NCBI RefSeq assembly: GCF_000296835.1
Contig: NZ_CAKE01000035.1
Span: forward strand, 1 to 64,000
Direction of reading: 5' to 3'
Length of the DNA: 64,000 bases
Source of the DNA: Lactobacillus hominis DSM 23910 = CRBIP 24.179
Lineage (GTDB): Bacteria; Bacillota; Bacilli; Lactobacillales; Lactobacillaceae
The notes beneath the pieces are model-generated. The model was not told the DNA's origin, made no database searches, and was given only the letters and a program-made list of their open reading frames with translations. This document shows, one piece after another, positions 41,588 through 44,996 of this stretch (positions are counted from its first letter, which is position 1; each line of letters opens with the position of its first letter). A program made the position numbers and the translations under genes.

Positions 41588-43399
41588 TTATTCAACAGTA
41601 ACTGATTTTGCTAAGTTTCTTGGCTTATCTACATCTAAACCTTTATTCTTAGATGCATAGTAAGCAAGCAATTGTGCAGGTACTGCAGTTAATAATGGTG
41701 ACATGTAGTAATCAACTTGAGGTAAGATAACATCGTCATCTTTACGTGCAAAGTCCTTACCAACAAAGGTCATTACATTTGCTCCACGTGATTCAACTTC
41801 TTGAATATTACCACGAGTCAAATCTGCAGTTGCAGGATCATTGATCAAAGCAATAACTGGAGTACCATCTTCAATTAGGGCAATTGTTCCGTGCTTTAAT
41901 TCAGCTGCAGCAAAACCTTCAGTTTCAATGTAAGAAACTTCCTTAAGCTTCAAAGCACCTTCCAATGCAACTGCGTAATCTACTCCACGCCCAATGTAAA
42001 ATGCATTGCGAGTATTAGCTAAGTACTTCTTAGCAAGTTCATCGATCTTTTCTTTACCATCAACTAATTCTTGCATACCTTCAGCAACTAAGGCTAATTG
42101 GTTCTTCAAATCGAAATCTTTAGCGTCTTGAAGCCCCTTCTTTTCACCAACTGCTTTAGCTAAAATTGCTTGAACTGCAATTTGAGCAGTATATGCCTTA
42201 GTAGAGGCTACGGCAATTTCAGGACCAGCTTCCAAAAGCATAGTGTAAGTTGCTTCACGAGATAAAGTAGAGCCTTCAACATTAGTCATAGTTAAACTTG
42301 GAAGGTTTCTTTCGTTAACTTGCTTTAAGACTACACGTGAATCTGCAGTTTCACCAGATTGCGATAAGAAGATGAAGAAAGGCTTTTTAGATAACTTAGG
42401 GAAATGGTAACCAAATTCCGAAGCCAAACCTACTTCAACTGGAATGTCAGCATACTTTTCAATAATATTCTTACCAACTAAGCCAGCGTGGTAACTAGTA
42501 CCAGCAGCTAAAATATAAATTCGATCACTTTCAGCTACTGCATCAACAATACTTTGTTCAACACGCACATCGCCATCAGCGCCAAAATAAGTTTGAGATA
42601 AACGCCGCATTACTGCAGGTTGTTCATCGATTTCTTTGAGCATGTAGAATTCGTAAGTACCCTTGGAGGCAGCATTTGGATCGATATCTAAAGTATGAGG
42701 TTTTCTTTCAACCTTTTCGCCATCGAGGTTTTCGATAACTACTTCTTCCTTAGTTACATCAGCAACATCACCATCTTGCAAGTCAATAAAAGTCTTAGTT
42801 TGATCTAAAACTGAAATCGCGTCAGAGGCAATAATGTTAAAACCATCGCCCAAACCAAGCATCATTGGACTCTTGTTCTTAGCAATGAAAATATGAGATG
42901 GTTCAGTATCATCAACCAATAAGAAAGCGTAAGAACCCTTAACTAACTTCAAAGCCTCTTTAAATGCTGAAAAACCATCAAGATCTTTTTCACGAGCAAT
43001 CTTAGCTACTAATTGAACAACAACTTCAGTATCAGTAGTAGATTTAAAGTTAACATCTGAAAGATATTTCTCTTTTAATTCAGCGTAATTTTCAATAACG
43101 CCGTTATGTACTAAGTAAAAACGACCATCTTCTGATACGTGAGGGTGGGCATTATCAACAGTTGGCTTACCGTGCGTAGCCCAACGTGTATGTCCAATTC
43201 CCACTAAACCTTGTTCATCAGGAGTTAGCTTATCTTCCAAGTTGCTAATTCTTCCGACTGCCTTAGTTAGATATTCATGCCCATTTAAATCATTTAAATA
43301 AATACCTGCTGAATCATAGCCACGGTATTCCAAATTCTTTAAACCATTTAATACAATATCACGAGCAGGCTTTCCGACTACTCCAACAATACCACACAT
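41588..43399 (-). CDS. glmS: Glutamine-fructose-6-phosphate aminotransferase (isomerising)
   Basis: First enzyme of UDP-GlcNAc synthesis: makes glucosamine 6-phosphate from fructose 6-phosphate and glutamine. The 603 residues include catalytic Cys2 (MCGIVGVVG), the glutaminase domain to about residue 240, and two SIS domains with SQSGETADSR and AASTKAYTAQ. Ends with KSVTVE, the family C terminus. Its leader has no glmS ribozyme; instead two GntR-type operators flank the promoter. Confidence 0.98.
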   Translation of the reverse strand: MCGIVGVVGKPARDIVLNGLKNLEYRGYDSAGIYLNDLNGHEYLTKAVGRISNLEDKLTPDEQGLVGIGHTRWATHGKPTVDNAHPHVSEDGRFYLVHNGVIENYAELKEKYLSDVNFKSTTDTEVVVQLVAKIAREKDLDGFSAFKEALKLVKGSYAFLLVDDTEPSHIFIAKNKSPMMLGLGDGFNIIASDAISVLDQTKTFIDLQDGDVADVTKEEVVIENLDGEKVERKPHTLDIDPNAASKGTYEFYMLKEIDEQPAVMRRLSQTYFGADGDVRVEQSIVDAVAESDRIYILAAGTSYHAGLVGKNIIEKYADIPVEVGLASEFGYHFPKLSKKPFFIFLSQSGETADSRVVLKQVNERNLPSLTMTNVEGSTLSREATYTMLLEAGPEIAVASTKAYTAQIAVQAILAKAVGEKKGLQDAKDFDLKNQLALVAEGMQELVDGKEKIDELAKKYLANTRNAFYIGRGVDYAVALEGALKLKEVSYIETEGFAAAELKHGTIALIEDGTPVIALINDPATADLTRGNIQEVESRGANVMTFVGKDFARKDDDVILPQVDYYMSPLLTAVPAQLLAYYASKNKGLDVDKPRNLAKSVTVE

Positions 43400-43434
43400 A
43401 TTTTTATCTCCTTTTATCCAACCACTTGAGTAAG

Positions 43435-43446
43435 TGGTCTAGACTG
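43435..43446. promoter_or_regulatory. Candidate GntR/NagR (dre-like) operator in the glmS leader
   Basis: TGGTCTAGACTG contains the perfect palindrome GTCTAGAC, matching the HutC-subfamily consensus GTMTAKAC. It is about 36 bases before the glmS start, downstream of the predicted transcription start, where a bound repressor would block elongation. An amino-sugar sensing regulator is inferred. Confidence 0.55.
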
Positions 43447-43480
43447 TGTTTTTGCTTTTAAAAAAGCTATCGCAATTGAT

Positions 43481-43509
43481 ATAATAGTAAACTTTCTTTC
43501 TAAGGTCAA
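43481..43509 (-). promoter_or_regulatory. Promoter of glmS
   Basis: Minus strand: -35 TTGACC (43509-43504), 17-base spacer, -10 TATTAT (43486-43481). Predicted start about 43474, giving a leader of about 75 bases. Confidence 0.75.
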
Positions 43510-43524
43510 GCATTTATCTGTAAA

Positions 43525-43535
43525 TGGTCTACTTT
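43525..43535. promoter_or_regulatory. Second candidate dre-like half-site upstream of the glmS promoter
   Basis: TGGTCTACTTT shares the seven bases TGGTCTA with the leader operator but has a degenerate second half. It lies 16 bases upstream of the -35 box, about 90 bases from the first site. Confidence 0.4.
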
Positions 43536-43597
43536 GCTTTTAAGGTACATACCAATTCATATTTTTTTGCTTTTGCATTAATACAAAAGCAAAAAAA

Positions 43598-43632
43598 ATA
43601 AGGCTTTAGGATTTCTCCTAAAGCTTTATTTT
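43598..43632 (-). terminator. Terminator of glmM
   Basis: Minus strand: AAGCTTTAGG pairs with CCTAAAGCCTT around AGAAAT, followed by an extended T run. A second A/T-only hairpin follows at 43563-43596. Confidence 0.85.
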
Positions 43633-43637
43633 ATCGA

Positions 43638-44996
43638 TTAATCTTTGCTACCCATTTCTTGCTTAACAATATCTGCAACTTGTTCACAATATTTATCAGC
43701 TAATTCTTGAGTTGGGGCTTCAGTCATCACACGAAGTAAATCTTGCGTTCCAGAAGGTCTTACAAAGATTCTTCCTTCATCGCCCAATTCTTTTTCGACA
43801 GTATCAATTGCATCAGTAATTGCTGCATGTTCTTTCCAAGATTTCTTATCTTTTACAGGAACGTTGATTAAGCGTTGTGGGTATTCTTTAAAGTCTTCTA
43901 GCAATTCGCTTAATGACTTACCAGTATCCTTCATTACGTAAAGCAAATGTAAACCAGTAAGCATTCCGTCACCAGTATTGTGGTAATCACTAATAATAAC
44001 GTGCCCAGATTGTTCTCCACCCAAGTTATAACCGTTAGCTCTCATTTTTTCTGAAACGTAACGGTCACCAACTTGAGTTCTAACATTCTTCAAACCGCGT
44101 CTTTCCAAAGCTTTAGTAAAGCCAAGATTACTCATAACAGTAGTTACGATAGTATCTTTCTTCAAACGGCCATGATCAGCTAAATATGAGCCGATAACAT
44201 ACATAATGTGGTCGCCATCTACTTCATTACCATTTTCATCAACAGCAATACAGCGGTCAGCATCCCCATCAAAGGCCAAACCTAATTGAGCACCTTGCTT
44301 AACGACTTCTTCTTGAAGTTTTTCAGTGTGAGTAGCACCAACATGATCGTTAATGTTTAAACCATTTGGATGAGTAGCAATAGTAGTGAAGTCTACTCCC
44401 ATATCTGCAAATAAGCGTGAAATTAAAGCACTAGATGCACCATTAGCGCCATCTACTACAACTTTAATACCGCCTAATTCTTCTGGTAAGGTATTTTCAA
44501 TGAATTGAAGATACTTAGAAGCACCTTCGTGATAATTAGTTACAGTACCTAAACCTTCAGCAGATGGACGAGGAAGTTTATCTTCTGGTGCATCGATTAA
44601 TTTTTCAATTTCTTCCTCTTTAGCATCAGATAACTTCAAACCATCGCTACCAAAGAACTTAATTCCGTTATCTTGAACTGGATTATGAGATGCAGAAATT
44701 TGTACACCAGCATCAGCGCCTTGAGCTCTTACTAAGTAAGAAAGACCTGGAGTAGTAATAACGCCAAGTTCTAACACTTCAATACCTACTGACAATAAAC
44801 CAGCTATTAAAGCATATTCAAGCATTTGACCAGAAATACGAGTATCTCTAGAAACTAAAACTTTTGCCTTTTCTCCATCTTTCTTATCTTTGGTTAAAAC
44901 ATAACCTCCATCACGACCTAATTTAAATGCCATTTCAGGAGTTAAACCTGCGTTAGCAACACCACGCACACCATCGGTACCAAAGTACTTAAGCAT
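43638..44996 (-). CDS. glmM: Phosphoglucosamine mutase
   Basis: Converts glucosamine 6-phosphate to glucosamine 1-phosphate. It has 452 residues with [12 protein letters not shown] at the start, the phospho-serine loop ISASHNP (about 100-106), the metal loop DGDADR and the phosphate-binding [12 protein letters not shown] near the end. I use the ATG at 44996; a TTG four codons earlier overlaps the possible ribosome site. Third gene of the cdaA-cdaR-glmM operon. Confidence 0.97.

Follow-up and report, generated by a model that had tools for sequence, protein, structure and literature searches.

Predicted NagR operators and an RNA leader hairpin at the glmS promoter of Lactobacillus hominis

glmS encodes the entry to cell-wall amino-sugar synthesis. 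In the L. hominis DNA analyzed here (a stretch of 64,000 nucleotides, hereafter the window), two candidate sites, U and D, flank the promoter of this gene. These are in all probability operators of the NagR protein (GntR/HutC) encoded in the same genome, through which glmS transcription would be lowered as part of a single regulon with nagB and nagR. In the mechanism we propose, NagR dimers would bind U, just before the -35 box, and D, in the transcribed leader, hindering polymerase at both places and so reducing glmS transcription. The transcribed operator D would double as an arm of a hairpin beside the ribosome-binding site (RBS), which probably acts on translation or mRNA stability. Because NagR/dre control of glmS has been published in streptococci, the core finding belongs to a known type of regulation; the covarying hairpin sharing sequence with the leader operator is a new element.

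RESULTS AND DISCUSSION

Paired dre-like sites bracket the glmS promoter

The GlmS protein encoded in the window is 98% identical to that of an uncultured Lactobacillus and 92% identical to that of L. rodentium; the genome comprises 1.93 Mb in 36 contigs. The features of the locus are as follows.

41588-43399, minus strand: glmS (glutamine-fructose-6-phosphate aminotransferase), 603 aa, from its open reading frame and GlmS identity to relatives
43408-43414, minus strand: Shine-Dalgarno sequence (SD) AAAGGAG of glmS, from sequence
43416-43444, minus strand: RNA hairpin (GUCUAG-A-CCACUU-ACUC-AAGUGG-UUGGAU) abutting the SD, from its predicted fold and arm covariation
43432-43449, minus strand: candidate leader operator D, dre-like, ACACAGTCTAGACCACTT, 11.0 bits, centered at -41 from the ATG
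43481-43486, minus strand: -10 box TATTAT of the glmS promoter, by consensus only
43504-43509, minus strand: -35 box TTGACC of the glmS promoter, by consensus only
43522-43539, minus strand: candidate upstream operator U, AAGCAAAGTAGACCATTT, 11.7 bits, centered 21 bp before -35
43540-43557, minus strand: weak third operator-like site, upstream, AATTGGTATGTACCTTAA, 6.2 bits
43562-43597, no strand assigned: long inverted repeat containing T/A tracts, located between a glmM-like gene and the glmS promoter, a probable terminator

A first-pass annotation had proposed that two GntR/NagR-like operators bracket this promoter, citing TGGTCTAGACTG in the leader (its first site, our D) and a recurrence of TGGTCTA about 90 bases upstream (its second, our U), on either side of a TTGACC-N17-TATTAT promoter. 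Each element is where it was claimed to be: TGGTCTAGACTG at 43435-43446 on the plus strand, with the inner GTCTAGAC at 43437-43444; TGGTCTA at 43525-43531, with a spacing of exactly 90 bp; and the promoter at 43481-43509 on the minus strand, between the two. We scored the sites with a palindromic matrix, AATTGGTCTAGACCAATT, trained on 75 nagB and nagR upstreams of other genomes of the genus, with the L. hominis genome (G000) withheld. Their scores and their recurrent positions identify U and D as putative NagR/dre-like sites. The weak third site, AATTGGTATGTACCTTAA, is mostly preserved in the nearest relative, L316.

A chance origin in AT-rich DNA would be the simplest alternative. The window contains 13 matches of at least 9 bits, 11 of them away from glmS, and an identical copy of the 12-mer, just under 9 bits, lies in a terminator before murA. 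Genome-wide, short-pattern counts show no enrichment (376 and 357 vs 425 and 453 for the control) and long-pattern counts a mild one (118 vs 82 per strand). Since single sites are not unusual in the window, the credibility of those at glmS rests on pairing, position and conservation. When the 200-nt upstream was simulated 10,000 times with a Markov model, no version had two matches of at least 11.0 bits, and 0.8% had one or more. Across the genus, sites of at least 9 bits were found within 200 nt in all 38 glmS upstreams, in none of 38 murA upstreams and in 4.2% of 1000 Markov sequences; at a threshold of 8 bits, murA upstreams with a site rose to 3 of 38. With this conservation, we regard coincidence as a very remote prospect. 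The upstream sets came from 41 genus genomes (38 each for glmS, murA and nagB; 39 for nagR), leaving aside genomes with no match and G023, in which the glmS start is missing. The training sets themselves gave 38 of 38 for nagB and 20 of 39 for nagR at 9 bits, the matrix here being scored on its own training sequences.

The arrangement also recurs. Counting matches of at least 6 bits, a U-type site is centered 21-23 bp before -35 in 23 of the 38 genus genomes (10 of the 38 lack an upstream match at this threshold), a D-type site lies at -41 to -46 in 21, and a site at -18 to -22, absent from the window, is found in 29. The pattern of an RBS-overlapping operator (TAGACCAAAGGAG and similar) was detected in 35 of 38 genus genomes and in 44 of 51 loci in a contig scan of relatives; it is missing from the window and from G001 and G007, the latter by one letter. 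In the genome scan of relatives, which left out L356 (no start), 50 of 51 have a site, the sole miss being a Woesebacteria protein of 38% identity. DNA looping between U and D, floated in the first-pass annotation, would favor spacings in helical phase; a phase test over 32 collapsed spacings (90 bp in the window) gave P 0.10 for a period of 10.5 bp and P 0.055 for one of 11 bp, short of significance. The sites at glmS are thus very likely to be NagR operators, judged by their sequence and placement, and to have partly decayed in L. hominis. Counting against this assignment are the modest scores in the window (11-12 bits vs 19.7 for the best nagB site), the genomes lacking an upstream match and the missing RBS operator.

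NagR and its other predicted targets

The first-pass annotation had expected a GntR/NagR homologue, together with the same motif near nagA, nagB or a GntR gene. Such a homologue is present at C22:27077-27790, and similar sites precede nagB and nagR, so the grounds on which its reading would have been withdrawn do not apply. Along its whole extent the protein aligns with YvoA/NagR of B. subtilis (2wv0, E 2e-38), and in its effector domain with 3ddv. Arg38, Arg48 and Gly69, reported as DNA contacts (PMC4333415), fall on R, R and G in the L. hominis protein by hand count along the structure alignment. Orthologues with at least 70% identity occur in 39 of 41 genus genomes (L. hominis included; two have internal stops), and the next matches listed reach only about 25-35% identity. 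NagR was described as universal among the lactic acid bacteria studied in an earlier survey (PMC3616900).

The expectation of shared sites was borne out at nagB (C15:105128-105847), where the upstream sites score 19.7 and 14.9 bits, and to a lesser degree at nagR (8.8 bits); it failed at nagA. The nagB sites sit between -35 and -10 and, in some genomes, also just past -10. nagA (C22:10981-12135) belongs to an apparent operon of a GntR gene, a sugar-isomerase gene that we take for agaS, nagA and then PTS-like genes (C22:9052-12135; L208:4053-7136); we found no match of at least 5 bits before the opening GntR gene, the next gene or nagA, which also counts against NagR operators. In place of a NagR site, the operon is preceded by what we take to be a repeated TGGTACTAACCA, along with a cre-like stretch. 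Taken together, the nagR gene and the sites at glmS, nagB and nagR support the proposal of protein-based, NagR-type control of glmS.

The genome encodes eight UTRA-type GntR proteins, and NagR is not the only one to resemble YvoA: the product of the first gene of the nagA operon does so as well (E 2e-30), which leaves more than one candidate binder. Another paralogue, such as this AgaR-like one, might bind the glmS sites. There is precedent for overlapping specificity: in Lacticaseibacillus paracasei, ChbR shares its in silico motif with NagR and shows weak binding to nagB (PMC12791066). Against such a substitution, the nagA operon has no match and carries a different-looking repeat, and nagR, kept in nearly all genomes of the genus, is in most cases preceded by a similar site of its own (at 6 bits or more in 32 of 39 upstreams and at 9 or more in 20 of 39, all except that of L. 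hominis being training sequences). We consider a paralogue improbable as the regulator and retain NagR.

Two further candidates for the regulon were rejected. The TGGTCTAGACTG copy before murA sits in the loop of the apparent pyrG-murA terminator and is unique to L. hominis (1 of 38 murA upstreams), pointing to chance. A histidine-phosphatase (phosphoglycerate-mutase-like) gene at C22:7271 has an 18.5-bit NagR-like site in its promoter region (C22:7169-7186; L208:2170-2187). A site was present in 2 of the 20 upstreams scanned, that of L. hominis included, out of 30 loci; it is not conserved and is lineage-specific or due to chance.

Precedents and the direction of control

The glmS promoter region of Streptococcus pneumoniae carries three dre sites; mutating site 1 or 3 raises expression from PglmS (PMC5110562). 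In S. mutans, NagR binds DNA upstream of glmS, and loss of nagR leads to constitutively high glmS expression (PMC5295006). By analogy with these streptococci, we infer that NagR binding at the L. hominis gene would repress it. The systems share a GntR/HutC-type NagR, several dre sites at the glmS promoter and sites at nagB, and S. mutans glmS is likewise reported without a ribozyme. They differ in that the leader operator of Lactobacillus also builds a covarying RNA hairpin, and in that L. hominis lacks the RBS-overlapping operator and has no site preceding nagA. For S. mutans, a review describes it as unclear how nagB and glmS can both be governed by a single repressor when no ribozyme is present (PMC5295006); Lactobacillus offers a simple leader, with two operators and a small hairpin, for this question. 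NagR of L. paracasei BL23 represses nagB and binds nagA and nagB, with palindromic sites predicted (PMC12791066). Its place at the nagB promoter matches the picture here; the word glmS is absent from the main text of that report. Our literature search, which covered titles and the starts of abstracts and few subscription papers, showed no study of glmS control by NagR in Lactobacillus among the papers listed.

In E. coli, the amino-sugar regulator NagC activates glmUS. A comparable scheme, with NagR activating glmS from U while repressing nagB from in-promoter sites, would explain opposite responses of the two genes to amino sugar. The geometry is compatible with it, in that U lies upstream of -35 without overlap at a distance held at 21-23 bp in many genus genomes, nagB sites instead lie between and just after the promoter boxes, and 5 of 16 ribozyme-bearing upstreams with a site (see below) have a single one, 28-30 bp before -35. 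The streptococcal results argue the other way: mutation of dre1 in S. pneumoniae raised expression (PMC5110562), and in S. mutans it was loss of nagR that left glmS high (PMC5295006). Activation is accordingly unlikely in our judgment, and repression remains the preferred reading.

The probable leader operator forms one arm of a hairpin

The 5' arm of the leader hairpin overlaps operator D, and an inverted repeat of D directly precedes the SD. In the window, the 40-nt stretch folds at -12.0 kcal/mol, a value reached by none of 200 shuffles; the SD stays outside the predicted pairing, and once it is included, in a 41-nt stretch, the fold stands out less, with 9 of 200 shuffles doing as well. 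Over 60 of 61 distinct leaders (L363, with no recognized SD, was left out), the median fold z is -2.6. L316 retains the stem through a compensatory change from C-G to U-A, and both it and L. hominis keep the hairpin although the RBS operator is missing.

Neighboring palindromic operators pair trivially, so adaptation of arm to arm was tested with chimeras, which combine the 5' half of one species with the 3' half of another in alignment A1 (51 leaders, 49 with an intact GlmS frame). For 22 representatives below 90% GlmS identity, own pairs gave -5.33 kcal/mol and chimeras -3.45 (sd 0.36); own arms were thus 1.9 kcal/mol better (z -5.2, 0 of 5000 as low). The outcome was the same with 38 and 25 representatives, and removing the four hairpins stronger than -9 kcal/mol left z at -3.4 (P 0.0004). 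Controls with reversed arms, neighboring segments and nagB tandem operators (the last in 22 genomes, not thinned) were null (z -0.7, 0.2, 1.8, 1.0 and -0.1). Hairpin cells were paired in 79.6% of cases vs 25.7-38.1% when slid, and covariation was 0.216 vs 0.045-0.082. The arms are mutually adapted across Lactobacillus beyond composition and operator likeness, and the hairpin appears to be kept by selection. If functional, it would add a post-transcriptional layer of control to a gene that lacks the ribozyme.

These data raise the question of whether the leader element is chiefly an RNA, with the hairpin setting glmS translation or mRNA stability and the operator likeness of D a by-product of dre ancestry. 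The arm adaptation with its null controls, the low fold energies across leaders and the survival of the hairpin in two leaders without the RBS operator all favor this idea. It leaves site U unaccounted for, however, and other results count against it. RNAalifold predicts no consensus pairs, 4 of 22 representatives have no hairpin (0 kcal/mol), double-change pairs do not exceed shuffles (4 vs 4.5) and pair types are not clearly raised. Too few events fall on each pair for tree-aware tests of single pairs, the window fold loses distinction once the SD is included, and quasi-palindrome correction by template switching could mimic the covariation. We therefore see a chiefly RNA role as a serious minority view, and favor NagR operators at both U and D, with the hairpin as an addition.

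A leader hairpin near the RBS is also found in E. coli, where that of glmS is controlled by GlmZ. The two arrangements are alike in combining an amino-sugar regulator with such a hairpin; they differ in that NagC is from an unrelated regulator family and the SD in L. hominis is predicted to be unpaired.

Several leaders stand out individually. L058, L342, L365, L338 and L343 carry G-C, A-U or U-A where the hairpin usually has a C-A mismatch, and L327 has another strong version. The leaders of L061, L354 and L355 (L. bombicola), a group that is presumably bee-associated, have no predicted hairpin (0 kcal/mol).

Operators and the glmS ribozyme across Lactobacillales

The glmS ribozyme (RF00234) is likewise a leader element controlling glmS. 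The first-pass annotation had noted its absence from this locus, and both cmscan of the 64 kb window and an Rfam search of 43380-43640 agree. The cmscan matches in the window were a tmRNA, an emrB-Lactobacillus RNA and two tRNAs; at E of at most 1, the interval 43380-43640 gave 14 matches, none reaching its own gathering score. The emrB-Lactobacillus RNA (RF02971, 17248-17309) is barely above its gathering score (61.7 vs 60.8).

RF00234 is present in 147 of 295 Lactobacillales genomes, none of them from the genus Lactobacillus, which contributed at least 14 genomes to the survey. Mapped onto a 43-row GlmS tree, the ribozyme label must change 7 times, with well-supported branches forcing 4 of these changes, and a single clade of ribozyme-bearing rows is rejected (p-AU 6e-7). 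Only the ribozyme (R) label counts are used here; the D and N labels and an independent-pair result were dropped, as they were based on a 200-nt scan. As this is a gene tree, transfer of glmS itself remains compatible with the pattern.

We scanned 66 glmS upstreams from 65 other Lactobacillales genomes, leaving out G000 and G014 (already counted), G076 and G100 (no match) and G054 (weak match). Within 440 nt, a dre-like site was found in 33 of 35 ribozyme-less and 16 of 31 ribozyme-bearing upstreams, with Markov expectations of 5.6% and 4.5%, respectively. Column-permuted matrices found an average of 1.5 of the 31 ribozyme-bearing cases and reached 16 in 0 of 300 trials. Mutual exclusion of ribozyme and dre, suggested by a 200-nt scan (1 of 31 vs 31 of 35), was an artefact that vanished at 440 nt, because the ribozyme pushes the promoter beyond the shorter scan. 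A loose search for the -35 box put the first site of the 16 ribozyme cases 28-30 bp ahead of it five times, 34 bp twice and 42 bp three times; in the remaining 6 it lies at other or unclear places, some perhaps off the promoter. These predicted sites make it likely that NagR and the ribozyme exert layered control in part of the Lactobacillales, which none of the papers listed in our literature searches describes for glmS.

A broader synthesis can be offered tentatively, at slightly less than an even chance of being right in full. The Lactobacillus glmS leader may be a composite switch, in which the same ~30 bases serve as a NagR operator in DNA and as the selected 5' arm of a hairpin in RNA, packed against the RBS. 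Across the order, NagR operators would underlie a ribozyme that has repeatedly come and gone, with protein and RNA control layered rather than alternative. Genomes in which operator and ribozyme co-occur would then be natural experiments on how RNA and protein control are layered and replace one another. As a separate observation, G099 has two glmS-like genes (L304 and L305), each adjoining its own glmS ribozyme match.
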